Below are positions 7,790 to 21,812 of a DNA stretch of 35,203 bases, piece by piece. The DNA is from a virus. Both the position numbers and the translations under genes were made by a program. The stretch spans positions 1-35,203 of IMG/VR virus record IMGVR_UViG_3300045941_000192; one strand, given 5' to 3'. The notes under the pieces were generated by a model. It did no database searches. It worked only from the letters and a program-made list of their open reading frames with translations, and was not told the origin of the DNA. Within the stretch, counting starts at the first letter, position 1. Every line of letters starts with the position of its first letter.

Positions 7790-8962
7790 TCATCGCGGCC
7801 ATTCATGGATCGGCTGCATCCCTGGCGCGCGACCATCCTGTGAGCCAAAAAGGTTGTGCTTGAGATACACGCGACAGCCAGCCGCGCGGGCCTGCTGATA
7901 CAGATCCGTGACCCATTCGAAGGGCGGGGCAAACGGTTCGGCCTGTTGTGACCCCGTCGACGCGCCGATTACCACCCAGTCGAACATCACGAGCGAGGAA
8001 AACTTCAAGGGCTCGAGCAGCGGTTCGCAACTGAGCCAGCGAACGCCAGCCTTGACGCCGGCGAAACTCTTCTCCGCCACGGCCACGCGGTGCTGTCGAT
8101 CCACCGTGGTTCCGGCCCAGACGTTGTCGGGCCAATCAATCTGCGCGAGCCGATCAGGAAACTTGGTGAGGCAGAGGTACTCCCATTGCGGGGTCTCACG
8201 AATCTGCTCAAAAACGGCAGTGATCCATTCCTGCGGCACCCACTTACCAAAGAGGTCGGCCATTGAACACGTGAAGACGCGCCGCCAGGCGGGATCATCG
8301 GTCGCGTCCTTCGGGAGCTTTGTATGGAGAGGAGCCGTCAACCGTTCCGGCAGAAACGTTGGCGCAAACTTCTGCGGATAGAGCCGCTCCGCGATGTCCC
8401 GGGCGTAGCAGTACTCGCAGTTGTGCAGACAGCCGGTTACCGGATTCCACGACCAGCGCGCCCAGCCGATGTTGTCGTTGACCTGATTGAACGTCGGGTG
8501 TGTCTGCGCGGGTTTCGCGCTGGCGGGTTTCTCGATCGGGATGTCAGCAGGCAGTCTCCGGAGGATCTTTTTCCGGACCACCGTGCCTGCGGCCACCAGA
8601 CGGCGCACTTCCGTGGCATGCACGGCCATCTGCCGACATTCGTGAATTACGCGGTCGGTCAGACCGTTTGTAATCCTACCCGGGGTAGGATTATCTTTCG
8701 GCCAGGGACGACCGCGCTGCGGCACCCCCAGTAGCTCGCCAATCAACAGCTCCGTCAATCGCTGCTCACCCGCAATCGCTTTCTTCGCGGCTTTGTCATC
8801 CAGATATTTCTGAATCGCGTCCAGCTGTTTTTTCAGCTCATACGCTGCCGCCTGGTCACGACGGTTCTGACAGTGCTGCCGTACCAGTTGCACCTGCTGC
8901 ACGATCACGGGAATCTCCGCGAGCTTGATCCGCTTCGCGTCAGGCAACACAAGCGCCGTCAT
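7790..8962 (-). CDS. Gp37/Gp68 (DUF5131) radical-SAM-like three-Cys protein, fused N-terminal helical domain
   Basis: A 390-aa protein. Residues about 160-390 match the phage Gp37/Gp68 family: NIGWARWSWNPVTGC, the three-Cys motif C178-x3-C182-x2-C185 (the CX3CX2C of radical SAM enzymes), then YARDIAERLYPQKF, MADLFGKWVP and WAGTTVD. Residues 1-150 are a separate helical domain (QNRRDQAAAYELKKQLDAIQ and GEQRLTELLIGELLGV) of the type found in ParB-like or phage regulatory proteins. The ATG at 8962 has GAGGAAGCC before it. Function unknown. It lies beside a TcmP-like partner and probably modifies a nucleic acid or protein. Confidence 0.8.
   Translation of the reverse strand: MTALVLPDAKRIKLAEIPVIVQQVQLVRQHCQNRRDQAAAYELKKQLDAIQKYLDDKAAKKAIAGEQRLTELLIGELLGVPQRGRPWPKDNPTPGRITNGLTDRVIHECRQMAVHATEVRRLVAAGTVVRKKILRRLPADIPIEKPASAKPAQTHPTFNQVNDNIGWARWSWNPVTGCLHNCEYCYARDIAERLYPQKFAPTFLPERLTAPLHTKLPKDATDDPAWRRVFTCSMADLFGKWVPQEWITAVFEQIRETPQWEYLCLTKFPDRLAQIDWPDNVWAGTTVDRQHRVAVAEKSFAGVKAGVRWLSCEPLLEPLKFSSLVMFDWVVIGASTGSQQAEPFAPPFEWVTDLYQQARAAGCRVYLKHNLFGSQDGRAPGMQPIHEWPR
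8671..8693. other. 23-nt perfect inverted repeat inside the Gp37/Gp68 gene
   Basis: Arms TAATCCTACCC and GGGTAGGATTA are perfectly complementary around a single central G, inside the coding sequence at the NPTPGR residues of the N-terminal domain. Eleven-base perfect arms are unlikely by chance at one given place. It could be a protein-binding site or an RNA hairpin. Confidence 0.8.
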
Positions 8963-9249
8963 GGCTTCCTCTCGATGCGGCAGTGGCACGCGTGACAAAT
9001 GGCCTCGAGATGCGACGGGACGTCGAATGTGCCCCACGGCGGGTACGCCACGTGATGCACTTCGGTCGCCACCGCGCCGCAGTGCCGACAGCGGCCCCCG
9101 TCGCGCTCCCACGCAACGGCCCGAACGGCCAGAAAAACGGGATGCCGGAGGTACTCTTCATAGGTCGAATAGAAGTGTCGGGTGAGCGGTACTCGCCGCA
9201 GGTTCGACTTTGGCAAGGATGGCCTGGGCACGAGCGGATCGACTGTCAT
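8959..9249 (-). CDS. HNH endonuclease between TcmP-like and Gp37/Gp68 genes
   Basis: A 96-aa HNH protein. The zinc pair C54-x2-C57 (CRHCG), the EVHHV motif with H65/H66, and the second zinc pair in LEAICHACHCRIE give the HNH fold. The Asn position of the usual NLxxLC motif is His here. The reading frame overlaps the last about 92 bp of the TcmP-like gene. The only ATG (MTVDPLVP) lies inside that gene, preceded by GGGG. The stop overlaps the Gp37/Gp68 start by 4 bp. It may be part of the same functional unit or an independent nuclease. Confidence 0.75.
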   Translation of the reverse strand: MTVDPLVPRPSLPKSNLRRVPLTRHFYSTYEEYLRHPVFLAVRAVAWERDGGRCRHCGAVATEVHHVAYPPWGTFDVPSHLEAICHACHCRIERKP

Positions 9250-9946
9250 AGAACCCCAGTTGCGAATAGCCGATGGTGTCGGTCTGTATCGTGCGACCCA
9301 CGAACTGCATCCATGACGAGCCGGCGATTTGACACACATCCGTCCACATCCACGACGGACGGCTGAACAGAGCCGAAAACTCTGACGGCCAATGCACTCG
9401 ATCACGTCCCCAGGCATGGCCGGTCTCGAGTCGCAAGGTGCGGATATTCAGATTCATGATCACGTCGAAGCGCCGATACTCCGCACAGAACATCCGCAGC
9501 GCATCCCACGGAACACCTTTGGAATAGCCGTTCGGATCGATCAGGATCGACCCCATCGCGTACTGCGGTCTGTGTTCCCGCTTACGAATGAATGCCGACA
9601 CGACGGGGAGTAATTCCGCGTTGTCCGCTTCGAACACCGATAGACGGTCCTTCGGGGTCGCGAGAATCTCAGGGCACGTCGTCAGCGCCGCGATGCAAGA
9701 CGGGTCCTTGTCGATGAAAAATGCGTACATGTTGTCGCGACGTTCGCGCGCGACCGCATTGAGAAAATTCACCGGACTCCCAGGGACACCAGCCTCCGTG
9801 TTGTAGCCACTCCCCGCATTGAGATCGATGTGGTAGTACGGATAGGTCCTCACATTGCGCGCTTTTGAGATTCGCAGGCTCTGGACAAGGATCGCGGCGA
9901 AGCGTTCTTCCTTGAACCACGTGTAACCGCTTTGCCCCTGCATCAC
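9158..9946 (-). CDS. tcmP: Three-Cys-motif partner protein TcmP-like
   Basis: A 262-aa protein. The start (YTWFKEERFAAILVQSLR) and the glycine-rich loop YYHIDLNAGSGYN resemble the SAM-binding-like motif of TcmP proteins, the regular genomic partners of Gp37/Gp68 three-Cys proteins. Later motifs are AFFIDKDPSCI, GSILIDPNGYSKGVPWDALR and FDVIMNLNIR, as in a Rossmann methyltransferase-like fold. The partner is encoded one gene downstream, which supports the assignment. It is coupled to the upstream gene by ATGA. Biochemical role unknown. Confidence 0.7.
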   Translation of the reverse strand: MMQGQSGYTWFKEERFAAILVQSLRISKARNVRTYPYYHIDLNAGSGYNTEAGVPGSPVNFLNAVARERRDNMYAFFIDKDPSCIAALTTCPEILATPKDRLSVFEADNAELLPVVSAFIRKREHRPQYAMGSILIDPNGYSKGVPWDALRMFCAEYRRFDVIMNLNIRTLRLETGHAWGRDRVHWPSEFSALFSRPSWMWTDVCQIAGSSWMQFVGRTIQTDTIGYSQLGFYDSRSARAQAILAKVEPAASTAHPTLLFDL

Positions 9947-10209
9947 GCAGCGACCTCCAGGTTATCGAGCACGGAGTACGGGTTCTCGCGATGCCAGGTC
10001 GCGCGGACGCGGGCCGGCGTGCCCTCGAGGTCGAGCGCGTCTTGGTAGAGCGTGGCTTCGCTCGTCACGAGCACGACGCACGGGCACAAGGGTCCGCGTC
10101 GGCGGTAGATGTGCGGCACGTCATGGGCGGCCAGGTGGATCTCGAACCACGCGCCGCGGGATCCGGTGCAGTAGTAGGTCTGCACGACCAGGAGCGCCGG
10201 GGTCGTCAT
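9943..10209 (-). CDS. Hypothetical early protein
   Basis: An 88-aa protein (MTTPALLVVQTYYCTGSRGA, PLCPCVVLVTSEATLYQDAL), likely beta-rich, with three cysteines. It is the third gene of the early leftward operon, immediately before the TcmP-like gene, with ATGA overlap. No family recognised. It could belong to the TcmP cluster. Confidence 0.6.
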   Translation of the reverse strand: MTTPALLVVQTYYCTGSRGAWFEIHLAAHDVPHIYRRRGPLCPCVVLVTSEATLYQDALDLEGTPARVRATWHRENPYSVLDNLEVAA

Positions 10210-10437
10210 TCACGCCCCCCGGCGCAAGGAAGCGAACGAGCGCGGTTGCCCCCATTCGCCGCGTAGGTAGCGATCGATCAGATCGGCGCGGTAGCGCACG
10301 CGTCGCCCCAGGCGCGGCCGAAGCTCCTCAAGGAATGGCAGCTTGCCCTGCGCTTTCAACGCTGTGAAGGTCCGCTGCGGCATCTGCAGTTTCTCGAGCA
10401 CTTCGGGCACGGTGTAGCAGCGCACGTCGGCGGTCAT
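10210..10437 (-). CDS. Excisionase-family HTH_17 DNA-binding protein
   Basis: A 75-aa MerR-like winged helix of the excisionase family: YTVPEVLEKLQMPQRTFTAL, then KLPFLEELRPRLGRRVRYRA and DLIDRYLRGEW. Position directly after the Cro-like gene in the early operon and the presence of an integrase make it the best candidate for the directionality factor (Xis). A role as an early regulator is the alternative. The ATG overlaps the upstream stop. Confidence 0.75.
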   Translation of the reverse strand: MTADVRCYTVPEVLEKLQMPQRTFTALKAQGKLPFLEELRPRLGRRVRYRADLIDRYLRGEWGQPRSFASLRRGA

Positions 10438-17987: not shown

Positions 17988-20900
17988 CTACAATTTCAGC
18001 ACGAGGACGGTCTGATTGTTGATGAACGCGGTACTGCTGTGGGCGACATGGCTCACCGGCCACTCGAAGTAGGTGCCTTTGTCGATCGCGTCGGCCGTCG
18101 TCACAAACTCGGCCACGATCGTGTGGTCGTTCTCATCCTGAATCACGATCGACACGCCGGTCTTGGTCGCGAGCCCGCGCCAGTAATCCACGCCGTCGCG
18201 CCCGACATATCGGAGCCAGATCTTCGTGACCGCCGTGTACGGGTGCGCCGCGTTGAGCCGCACTTGGTTACCGGTCGGCGGCTCGGTCAGCGTGTCGCTG
18301 AAGGTGTAGGGATAGATGGCGACATGCCGGCGGCGGGCGAACGGTTCCCAGCTCGTGCCGTTACTGCGCTCGACCTCGAGCCGTTCATCGGTCACGCAGT
18401 AGAGCGTCCCGGCCGTGACCGCTGTCGCCGCCGGCTGCGCGGCGCGCGTCCCGCGCCGGATGATTTGATCCACGTCGGCCAGGAGCAGGTAGTCGGCGAG
18501 GGCGCTCCCCGGCGCAGCTTGGGTCGCCCCGGTCCCGAGCGTGCGTAAGCTGCCGGTCGCCGCGGCCGCATCGACCGCCAGCGGATCGCTGCCGCCCGGT
18601 TCATGCGTCCCGTGGTGCGCGGCCACGCCCGTGTACGCTTGCCACGCCGTGCCGGTGCTCCGCTCTTGGACGTTTTCGTCCGTGACGAAATAGAGCGTCC
18701 CGGCGGGGACGGCGGTCGCGGCGGGCTGCGCCGCCCGCGTGCCGCGCTGATGCACGTCGTCGAGGTCCGCGCGGAGGACGTAGTTCGCGAGCGCCGATCC
18801 GGGCGCGGCCTGCCGCGCGCCGGTGCCCAACGTGCGGAGGCTGCCGATGACGGGATCGTTATCCACGAACAGCGGATCGCTGCCGCCGGGTTCGTGCGTC
18901 AAGTGGTGCGCCGTGCCGGCAGTACCGCCGCCGCCCCCGGTCGTCACCACCGCGCCGCCGCTGCCGCCTTGCGACCACTGCGTGTAGACATCCCGCCAGG
19001 ACCCTTGGAACGTCGTCGCTTCCTGCAGGGTCACCCGTCGGGACAACTTGGAATCGAGGTTGTCGTGGGTCTCGATTTCCGTGATCAGGAACTGCGCATT
19101 GAGATCGCGACGCGCGATGACGATCGTCTGCGACTGGCCGACCGCGAGACCCTTGCCGCGCGTTTCGTAGGTGACGAGCCGGCGCTGCTCGACATACTTC
19201 GCGAGCGCGTTATCCGCGACGGCTTGCGCCTGCGCCAACGTCAGCGCGGTCTCATCGCGGATCAAGACCTCGTGAATGCCGCGCGCCGTCTGCTCGGCGG
19301 CATCGTCGGCGTAGAGGATGATCGGATAGTTGGCGCGATACCGGATCGTGACCTCGGTCCCAGCGGGCAGGACGCCCAGGTTGCGCGTGATCGTCTTCGC
19401 GATCGGATTGAAGTACCAGTCCGCGGTCCCCGGCGTATCGGACAGCGTTTCATTGTGCGGCCCGGTAGGCAGTGTCGGCGCACCGCTTTTCTCGATGTCG
19501 TGATCGTCGTCATCGTAGTACACCCACTCGCCGTAGATATTCACATCGAGCCAGGTGCCGGTACCGTGGCGACCGTAGATGACGTAGCCTTGCGCGCCGG
19601 TCACCGGGTACCAATCGAGGCGGATCTTGTTGACGCTATCTGGTGAGGCTTGGCCATTGCTGACCGTGATCGTCCCCGTCTTCGCGGACTCGCCGCCGCC
19701 GTTCCACGCGCTGACCGCGTAGGTGTAGGTCGAGCTGCCGGGGGTGCCTTCGACGCGCACATCGAACCCGGTCGGCACAGCCGGCGGCGTGCCCACCGTG
19801 TTGACCGACACGACGCCGTAATGATTCAGGAAGGGATACCGCAGCGTAAACGTCGCGCTCACGCCGTCGCTGACAAACAGATCGTCCACGTCCTGGGGCG
19901 CGTCGGGCCCGCAGATCGCGATGATGCGGTTGGCGTACTCCGTGCCGAGCGGGTTGACCACGATGTCGCCGATCACCCGCCGGTCGCCGTCCACGATGTT
20001 GAAGGGCGCGACCTCCGATCCCGGCAGCCACATCCGGAGGACCTTGTTATAGTCGATTTCCCAGACGTATTGCGTCGCCGCGGTCAGTTCATCCAAGAGG
20101 TCGGACAGCTTCCGGTACTGCCAGGAGAACGGCTGCACGAGTGGTCCGTCTACTTGCGCGGCCGAGAGGGTGACGCCGAACGGCGTGAGATACGGGAGCA
20201 GTAGCTCGAGGACCGCCTTGAGCGTCATCGCCGCGGTCGAGGCTAAGCTGATCACATAGCGGCGATCGGGATAGACATTGAAATCGGTGGCGTTGATCTG
20301 GAAGGAGAGGTCGCGCTGCTGAAGAATCGCCGACTCCACGGCATCATCGATCACCCCGCCAAAGATGCGCACGCCATCCTCGGTGATCGTCACTTCGTCG
20401 GCAAGCTGCGGGCGCCACGAGGCGTCGAGGATGTCGAGCGTGCCGCTACACCGATCACGGCCGTTCATGGTGGCGCTGATCCGCAAGGTCCCGAGGCGGA
20501 CCACCCGTTCAATTCCCGCAATGGTTACGCTGACGCCTTCGGCCGGTTCTGGCGGGACTGCGACAGGTTTGAAGGCCGCAATCGAGACCGCGGCCCCCTG
20601 ACTCCCGCCACCGTACGTCCAGGTGGCATTGATGGCAGCCGCGGTCGGCTGAATCTTCCAGGCGGAATGATGCGAGCGCTGTCCGCTCCCGCTCGGGTCT
20701 TTGAGAAAGACGGATTCGACGAGTCCAGCATCGACGGTGGCGCTGGTCCCGTTGCCGTACGCGAAGCCGGACACGATGAAGGTGCCGTTGACGGTCGGCG
20801 CAATCGCGCCGCTCGCCAGGGTCCCGCTATGCAATGCGGTCTGGGTGCCGTTTTCGCCGTCGAATGGGCTGATCAAATCGAAACCGGCAAGGGCATAGAT

Positions 20901-21812
20901 CACCGATGACGGCCAGGAATTGGCCGTACTCGTCACGCTGAAGGTGTGATTCGTGCCGACGAGGGCATTCTTCGCGTAGTAGAACTGATGCGGCGCGCCG
21001 CCCGAATGGCGGGTCAGGGCAATCCACGTATTGCCCTTCGAATCGCTAATCGTCGGCGCGTTGACGGACGAGCCCCAGCCCAGATCCGCAATGAGCAGAG
21101 TCGCGCCGGTCGTATCGACGCCGGTACTGGTTTCGCCCCGACTCGTACTCCCCCAGAACGTGGTCGCGATCGCGACCAGGGGCGCCGGCAGAATCGTGTA
21201 ACAGGCGGTACAGCCGGCGCGCGTATCGGCGCCCGTCCACGTCCAGCCGGGGTTCCGCGTGGTCGCGGCGGTCTGGAGTTCGTCGCTGGCCGCGACGCCG
21301 AGGGCCTGACCCGCCACCTGCAGTGACGAATCCACCAACGCCATGGGCGACGACGCGGTGGGCAACACGCCCGCATTCCACGCCAGGCCCGATGTCACCA
21401 ACGCGGGCGCCGAGAGTGGTGTGACGGCGCCGGTCGAGAGCGATGTGCCCGACGTGACGGTCGCGTCCGCTTGAACTTGGCGCGTGAGCGTTTCGCCGCC
21501 GTACGCCCGGACCACGAAGGCGGAAAAATGATTCGTCCCGGCGACGGTAATGGTATGACCGGACCCTACCCCTGCCTGACCATATGAGTAGAACTTTTGG
21601 GTGGCCAAATTGGCGACCGCCCGCCGCGCCAGGGGTGTCCAGATATTCGACTTGTTGTCGGTGACGGTGGGCAGGGCGCCATTGGTGCCGATGTAGTACG
21701 CGACGGTGACTTCGATGAGTGTCGCACCGGTCGAATTGAAGGCCGGTGAGGTCGCGCCGGTACTGGCGCCGGTATAGCGCGCCTTGGTAGTCGCGAGAAC
21801 GGTGACTGCCAT
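17988..21812 (-). CDS. Baseplate hub / receptor-binding tail protein
   Basis: A 1274-aa mosaic. Residues about 1-205 and 207-412 are two copies of a beta-sandwich domain (GATLIEVTVAYYIGTNGALP versus GATLLIADLGWGSSVNAPT). Residues about 420-630 look like a siphovirus hub/Tal domain (ISATMNGRDRCSGTLDILDA, then EVTITEDGVRIFGGVIDDAV). Residues about 677-765 are fibronectin-III-like. Two tandem units of about 96 aa each begin HHLTHEPGGSDP and HHGTHEPGGSDP (about 968 and 1064). A unique end follows. It lies directly after the tape measure gene, so it should form the tail tip and contact the host. Decorating domains placed before the hub domain are unusual. Confidence 0.75.
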   Translation of the reverse strand: MAVTVLATTKARYTGASTGATSPAFNSTGATLIEVTVAYYIGTNGALPTVTDNKSNIWTPLARRAVANLATQKFYSYGQAGVGSGHTITVAGTNHFSAFVVRAYGGETLTRQVQADATVTSGTSLSTGAVTPLSAPALVTSGLAWNAGVLPTASSPMALVDSSLQVAGQALGVAASDELQTAATTRNPGWTWTGADTRAGCTACYTILPAPLVAIATTFWGSTSRGETSTGVDTTGATLLIADLGWGSSVNAPTISDSKGNTWIALTRHSGGAPHQFYYAKNALVGTNHTFSVTSTANSWPSSVIYALAGFDLISPFDGENGTQTALHSGTLASGAIAPTVNGTFIVSGFAYGNGTSATVDAGLVESVFLKDPSGSGQRSHHSAWKIQPTAAAINATWTYGGGSQGAAVSIAAFKPVAVPPEPAEGVSVTIAGIERVVRLGTLRISATMNGRDRCSGTLDILDASWRPQLADEVTITEDGVRIFGGVIDDAVESAILQQRDLSFQINATDFNVYPDRRYVISLASTAAMTLKAVLELLLPYLTPFGVTLSAAQVDGPLVQPFSWQYRKLSDLLDELTAATQYVWEIDYNKVLRMWLPGSEVAPFNIVDGDRRVIGDIVVNPLGTEYANRIIAICGPDAPQDVDDLFVSDGVSATFTLRYPFLNHYGVVSVNTVGTPPAVPTGFDVRVEGTPGSSTYTYAVSAWNGGGESAKTGTITVSNGQASPDSVNKIRLDWYPVTGAQGYVIYGRHGTGTWLDVNIYGEWVYYDDDDHDIEKSGAPTLPTGPHNETLSDTPGTADWYFNPIAKTITRNLGVLPAGTEVTIRYRANYPIILYADDAAEQTARGIHEVLIRDETALTLAQAQAVADNALAKYVEQRRLVTYETRGKGLAVGQSQTIVIARRDLNAQFLITEIETHDNLDSKLSRRVTLQEATTFQGSWRDVYTQWSQGGSGGAVVTTGGGGGTAGTAHHLTHEPGGSDPLFVDNDPVIGSLRTLGTGARQAAPGSALANYVLRADLDDVHQRGTRAAQPAATAVPAGTLYFVTDENVQERSTGTAWQAYTGVAAHHGTHEPGGSDPLAVDAAAATGSLRTLGTGATQAAPGSALADYLLLADVDQIIRRGTRAAQPAATAVTAGTLYCVTDERLEVERSNGTSWEPFARRRHVAIYPYTFSDTLTEPPTGNQVRLNAAHPYTAVTKIWLRYVGRDGVDYWRGLATKTGVSIVIQDENDHTIVAEFVTTADAIDKGTYFEWPVSHVAHSSTAFINNQTVLVLKL

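Follow-up and report, generated by a model that had tools for sequence, protein, structure and literature searches.

Sequence analysis of a phage cassette that joins an HNH nuclease gene to the TcmP-DUF5131 pair

On the minus strand of the IMG/VR virus record IMGVR_UViG_3300045941_000192 (35,203 nucleotides, analysed over its whole length and referred to here as the window), we found a cassette of three coupled genes, encoding TcmP, an HNH nuclease and a DUF5131 (Gp37/Gp68) protein, which from its sequence appears to be a new phage variant of a known candidate pair, modular and armed with a nuclease. TcmP-DUF5131 pairs are widespread, and the literature searched gives no function for DUF5131, TcmP or the related candidate system PDC-M41. 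The HNH version would offer a direct readout, namely DNA cleavage that depends on two SAM-using proteins, which would open the pair to simple restriction assays. Should the mark be on DNA, phage modification-and-cleavage systems would also gain radical-SAM chemistry.

Our best explanation, held tentatively and at somewhat less than an even chance, is a phage DNA modification-plus-cleavage cassette with exchangeable specificity, in which the TcmP-DUF5131 pair is armed with a nuclease. TcmP would bind SAM in an RlmJ-type pocket and recognise or methylate a base; an exchangeable N-terminal module would bring DUF5131 to DNA for radical-SAM chemistry on the base or on the methyl group; and the HNH protein, physically tied to TcmP (separate in the window, fused in relatives), would cut unmarked DNA, such that the phage or lysogen may protect its own DNA and exclude other DNA. 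The computation itself shows the radical-SAM fold, the RlmJ-like SAM fold and its catalytic Asp, the HNH histidines, the linkage, fusion and co-divergence of the HNH, and the replacement of TcmP and the N-terminal module. What we infer in this scheme is DNA rather than RNA as the substrate, the order of the reactions, the logic of protection versus cleavage, and the role in exclusion. A restriction-modification-like system, in which a novel mark made by the methyltransferase-fold and radical-SAM pair is read by a dedicated HNH, with methyltransferase and DNA-binding module acting as exchangeable specificity cassettes, appears possible but rather doubtful. The rivals weighed below are, in falling order of probability, self-protection, RNA modification, repair and hitchhiking.

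The cassette and its three proteins

The window holds terminase, portal, protease, major head and tape-measure genes together with an integrase, and looks like the genome of a temperate tailed phage. Adjoining the tape-measure gene is a 1274-aa ORF (17988-21812, minus strand) with no PHROG match at E 0.001. The minus-strand order around the cassette is Xre-type regulator, excisionase-like HTH gene, P88, TcmP, HNH, DUF5131, exonuclease VIII, ASCH/DUF3850 gene and AAA gene; the cassette lies within the early operon, adjoining exonuclease VIII and a recombination-type AAA gene. The excisionase-like HTH_17 regulator (10210..10437, minus; PF12728, E 2.8e-6; phrog_66), at the head of the same operon, is given for context only. 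All three proteins named in the original prediction were found on this strand by profile matches, and the translational coupling that it proposed is seen throughout, with overlapping starts and stops: one nucleotide between the P88 stop and the TcmP start (TGATG), 92 nt between TcmP and HNH, and a shared ATGA between the HNH stop and the DUF5131 start.

The 88-aa protein encoded upstream of TcmP and coupled to it (P88; 9943..10209, minus; likewise context only) had been proposed as part of the system, which was not borne out. A related phage (L225) carries a 53% homologue of P88, and neither TcmP, HNH nor DUF5131 was detected in it. P88 was rejected as a cassette member on these grounds, and is a phage backbone gene. 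Because L225 has this homologue but no detected cassette protein, it seems that a cargo slot houses the cassette.

TcmP (9158..9943, minus) has 261 aa from its probable start at ATG 9943, GTG 9946 being also possible. It matches TIGR04474 with an E-value of 8e-14 and 52.2 bits, just below the curated cut-off of 53, and its AlphaFold (AF2) model, with a pLDDT of 90.9, has a SAM-dependent methyltransferase fold whose best PDB match is RlmJ, the 23S rRNA A2030 N6-methyltransferase (Z 16.2, versus 14.0 for the next family). RlmJ-family proteins were also on top in the sequence-profile search, and motif IV DP, AGxG and GSP are common to both. However, motif IV reads DPNG in the window instead of DPPY (Asp in 48/48 sequences, Pro in 41/48), and the long insert of RlmJ after motif I is missing; because DPPY is DPNG, TcmP is RlmJ-like, not RlmJ. 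Numbering from the GTG, K12 and D137 are conserved in all 48 sequences and D41 in 46 of them. D137 aligns with RlmJ D164, which together with K18 is essential for methyl transfer (PMC3814359), and K12, invariant and located in helix 1, is presumed from its position to be the counterpart of K18. The sequences in the TcmP alignment A2 diverge too far for pattern scanning.

The putative HNH endonuclease (8959..9249, minus), of the 4-Cys zinc-ribbon type, overlaps the 3' end of TcmP and matches PHROG HNH families with an E-value of about 3e-6. The description of an HNH nested between TcmP and DUF5131 was right about its presence and overlap. The 152-aa ORF of the program-made list begins inside TcmP, and the likely start, ATG 9249, gives 96 aa. 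The conserved domain begins near residue 27, and a nearer GTG or TTG start is possible. Profile comparison with the PDB retrieved the HNH domains of Cas5-HNH from type I-E Cascade (E 1e-9) and of IscB (4e-7); unlike in those systems, no guide-RNA machinery was seen here, and in relatives the HNH is joined to TcmP. Among 39 sequences, H65, H66 and H89 are present in 39 and the four cysteines in 38-39. Because the conserved middle Asn (Asn80 in 36/39 relatives) is His80 in the window, we are less confident that this copy is active. A PADLOC scan with the HNH and TcmP of the window gave no match.

The DUF5131 protein (7790..8962, minus; PF07505, E 5.6e-43) begins at ATG 8962, overlapping the HNH stop, and has 390 aa, as comparison with its homologue in L004 indicates; the 440-aa reading of the original prediction, which was correct in the family and the CX3CX2C motif, begins at a GTG within the HNH gene. 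The motif, C178-LHN-C182-EY-C185 (8408..8431, minus), is invariant in 65/65 aligned relatives, together with W167, N173, S233, D236, K267, E313 and K368. In the AF2 model (mean pLDDT 84.7, core >90), the top fold matches of the core are radical-SAM enzymes with Z scores of 9-14, led by spore photoproduct lyase, which acts on DNA (Z 13.8 over 203 residues, 3.2 Å, 12% identity), RlmN, which acts on RNA (Z 11.6), and viperin (Z 11.3). The designed helical protein 9k7w, at Z 11.6, matches the N-terminal helices and was not counted among the real matches. Foldseek E-values for this model were weak (best 3.4e-3), and sequence profiles compared with the PDB gave no meaningful match, only the fold search giving one. 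The model thus did not bring the refutation that a missing Fe-S/SAM pocket would have meant for the original prediction: it is a radical-SAM barrel, and none of its three cluster cysteines varies among the relatives. Membership of the radical SAM superfamily is supported by the model; the fold by itself does not tell the type of reaction.

Both models bear on the substrate. In an RNA-directed system, TcmP and DUF5131 would modify rRNA or tRNA by RlmJ- and RlmN-like chemistry, and the HNH would be a coupled effector. In its favour, the closest fold to TcmP is an RNA enzyme and RlmN is the second real match of DUF5131, two points that, like the lack of DPPY in TcmP and the His80 of the HNH, count against our best explanation; depositors also name some mycobacteriophage DUF5131 genes RNA methyltransferase. 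However, spore photoproduct lyase outscores RlmN, the nearest profile matches of the HNH cut DNA, and relatives of DUF5131 carry fused ParB_N and HTH modules; we regard an RNA target as quite unlikely.

Association of the HNH gene with the pair

Scanning from the HNH gave 38 distinct homologues that scored 70 bits or more; 38 out of 38 were found beside TcmP and 35 beside DUF5131, the remaining three being at contig ends, an exclusivity that refers to this HNH clade only, as the search patterns were derived from cassette HNHs. Weaker HNH hits, IscB among them, sit outside the cassette. In bacterial genomes, the triple of HNH, TcmP and DUF5131 occurred in 3/3 HNH loci, and the sole HNH match at ≥60% among 72,556 plasmids was also within a triple.

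The scan from DUF5131 kept the 80 closest of 491 hits, in which distant DUF5131 proteins are unrepresented, and found TcmP in 55 of the 56 loci with enough upstream sequence and the HNH in 16 of them. At 55/56 loci among these best 80 of 491 hits, the arrangement of DUF5131 with TcmP is beyond chance; in the distant DUF5131 set L012-L018, no TcmP was seen. We used 16/56 as the frequency of the HNH, since the fraction of about half among all loci is biased by the HNH-led scan. The neighbourhood survey proposed at the outset thus did not refute the original prediction: at 16/56, the nuclease is not missing from nearly all homologous loci, and it is not incidental. In the same set (best 80 of 491), 40/56 loci lack the HNH, and 39/56 have the TcmP-DUF5131 pair without it; most loci being HNH-less, the pair must therefore do something without the nuclease, which weighs against our best explanation. 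This HNH clade was never found without the pair and the pair was often found without the nuclease, an asymmetry that would fit a system like restriction-modification.

Could the HNH be a selfish homing endonuclease that settled beside TcmP and DUF5131? Small HNH genes are frequently mobile, and the presence of this one requires at least 16 changes on the DUF5131 tree, five of them forced by strong branches, compared with 27 in shuffles; that is, it has been gained or lost, yet it is clustered on the tree. A homing endonuclease would be expected at a fixed site and to be independent of its neighbours, whereas this HNH is confined to the cassette and yet appears in three gene orders (30/3/2). 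It forms a single open frame with TcmP in three viral loci (L038:4068-5237, L059:3978-5216 and L062:2-481, the last truncated at the contig start). Its distances correlate with those of DUF5131 (r=0.65; null sd 0.07; 0/2000 permutations as high), dN is well below dS in the pairs computed, and starts and stops overlap. We consider hitchhiking very improbable, and the least probable of the explanations weighed.

Module exchange and the N-terminal domain of DUF5131

Pairwise comparison of cassettes shows that the HNH and the radical core can be conserved while TcmP and the N-terminal domain of DUF5131 are replaced, a pattern that is new here. First, between L034 and L038, DNA homology within the cassette is limited to the HNH (77%) and the radical core (81%), TcmP and the N-terminal domain being different. 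Second, L083 and L084 have the N-terminal domain and the core in common but not TcmP, and L031 and L045 are homologous from the HNH onward but not in TcmP, which is precisely replaced in both cases. Third, the window and L005 have cores that are 83% identical, whereas the HNH is 56% and TcmP 25% identical, and the N-terminal domains are unrelated. At the DNA level, the modules neighbouring the swapped TcmP are 77-81% identical in the pairs L083/L084, L031/L045 and L034/L038. Among the 154 pairs with core similarity ≥0.75, which are not independent of each other, 83 share both TcmP and the N-terminal domain, 52 share neither, 15 only the N-terminal domain and four only TcmP. Phage mosaicism could explain some of this exchange; however, the exchanged parts are separated by the conserved HNH, so that one recombination would not yield the pattern.

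These replacements also bear on a role in DNA repair, in which DUF5131 would reverse a base lesion in the manner of spore photoproduct lyase, with TcmP aiding recognition and the HNH nicking beside the lesion. The fold ranking speaks for it, the lyase being ahead of RlmN (Z 13.8 versus 11.6), but identity is merely 12%, the swapping of TcmP and N-terminal module points to targets that change rather than a fixed lesion, and the bacterial pairs are catalogued as defence candidates. Repair is thus improbable in our judgement, and modification plus cleavage of DNA remains the explanation that we prefer.

The exchanged N-terminal domain of the window's DUF5131 is helical (aa 1-154; 8501..8962, minus), and relatives have ParB_N, HTH or other helical modules at this site. 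The original prediction had called it ParB-like. For the window itself this was rejected: searches of Pfam and PHROGs, and tblastn against phages and plasmids, gave no match, and BLASTP against the N-terminus of L116 gave an E-value of only 0.99. A domain with no detectable DNA-binding homology counts against our best explanation. The idea survives in related DUF5131 proteins, several of which carry a genuine ParB_N at that position (Pfam E 1e-9 to 6e-12), others having HTH_38 or unassigned helical modules. In annotated phages, adenine-specific methyltransferases and DNA modification methylases have N-termini that match the ParB_N of L085; because the relatives' ParB_N is common to phage DNA methyltransferases, DNA is favoured, by association, as the substrate.

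Known systems and the bacterial pairs

Among the closest described systems are PADLOC phage-defence candidates. Window DUF5131 matches PDC-M41B (1.3e-40) and PDC-M30B (1.8e-38), with the same two-gene adjacency, and bacterial pair regions, which lack this HNH, match both subunits, PDC-M41A/B and PDC-M30A/B. In contrast, TcmP of the window matches neither A model, the HNH is added, DUF5131 has an N-terminal extension, and the cassette is phage-borne rather than chromosomal. Of 100 P. aeruginosa strains, 32 were reported to carry PDC-M30, and 68.8% of these carriers were phage-resistant, which is a correlation only (PMC10855318); our literature search found no antiphage proof for PDC-M30 or PDC-M41. 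Similarly, the pair resembles the three-Cys-motif partner TcmP (TIGR04474) and radical SAM mobile pair A (TIGR04471), DUF5131 matching the latter with an E-value of 1.2e-25, but the window proteins fall below both curated cut-offs and the HNH is outside these models. Spore photoproduct lyase shares the radical-SAM barrel, whereas DUF5131 has in addition a TcmP partner and an N-terminal domain.

The occurrence of the pair in bacteria matters for self-protection, or anti-restriction, in which hypermodification by TcmP and DUF5131 would shield phage DNA from host nucleases, and the HNH, where present, would be a processing or recombination nickase. The early-operon position beside exonuclease VIII and the AAA gene, the frequency of the pair without HNH (39/56, best 80 of 491) and the ParB_N module common to phage DNA methyltransferases all speak for it. 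Yet the pair is also found in bacterial chromosomes, where phage self-protection has no obvious benefit, and an HNH that is tied to this pair and forms one frame with TcmP in some loci exceeds what a generic processing nuclease would need; self-protection is thus unlikely, albeit the strongest of the rivals. The role in nucleic-acid modification and cleavage first proposed agrees with the folds and with the TcmP-HNH fusions, as well as with the ParB_N modules and the restriction-modification-like asymmetry, and it is to be amended by leaving out P88 and ParB homology in the window.

DUF5131 was present in 36/296 sampled genomes of one bacterial phylum, most of the full-length loci retrieved having TcmP nearby. 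Fourteen bacterial DUF5131 regions match 160 PADLOC families versus eight in control regions, a count dominated by the pair's own and overlapping type I MTase models and with controls from few genomes; a defence-island context is thus suggestive only. In an expression table for S. meliloti that is arranged by putative transcription unit, the entry directly after the defence gene hna is a TcmP gene (PMC12445080).

Other phage and bacterial loci add the following observations. In Gordonia phage Easley (2776-4916), DUF5131 and TcmP lie in opposite orientation between the integrase and the immunity repressor, a lysogeny-cargo position. In Mycobacterium phage prophiGD53-3 (2036-5388), a DNA methylase gene precedes DUF5131, and a further HNH endonuclease gene lies two genes on; because this locus has a DNA methylase and no detected TcmP, DUF5131 may take other methyltransferase partners. 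Lastly, in the bacterial regions L195-L208, five proteins have weak matches to Pfam GP88 (best 6.9e-7), and HMUDK_hel, Nmad2 and MazG_C, which are domains associated with nucleotide modification, occur once each.
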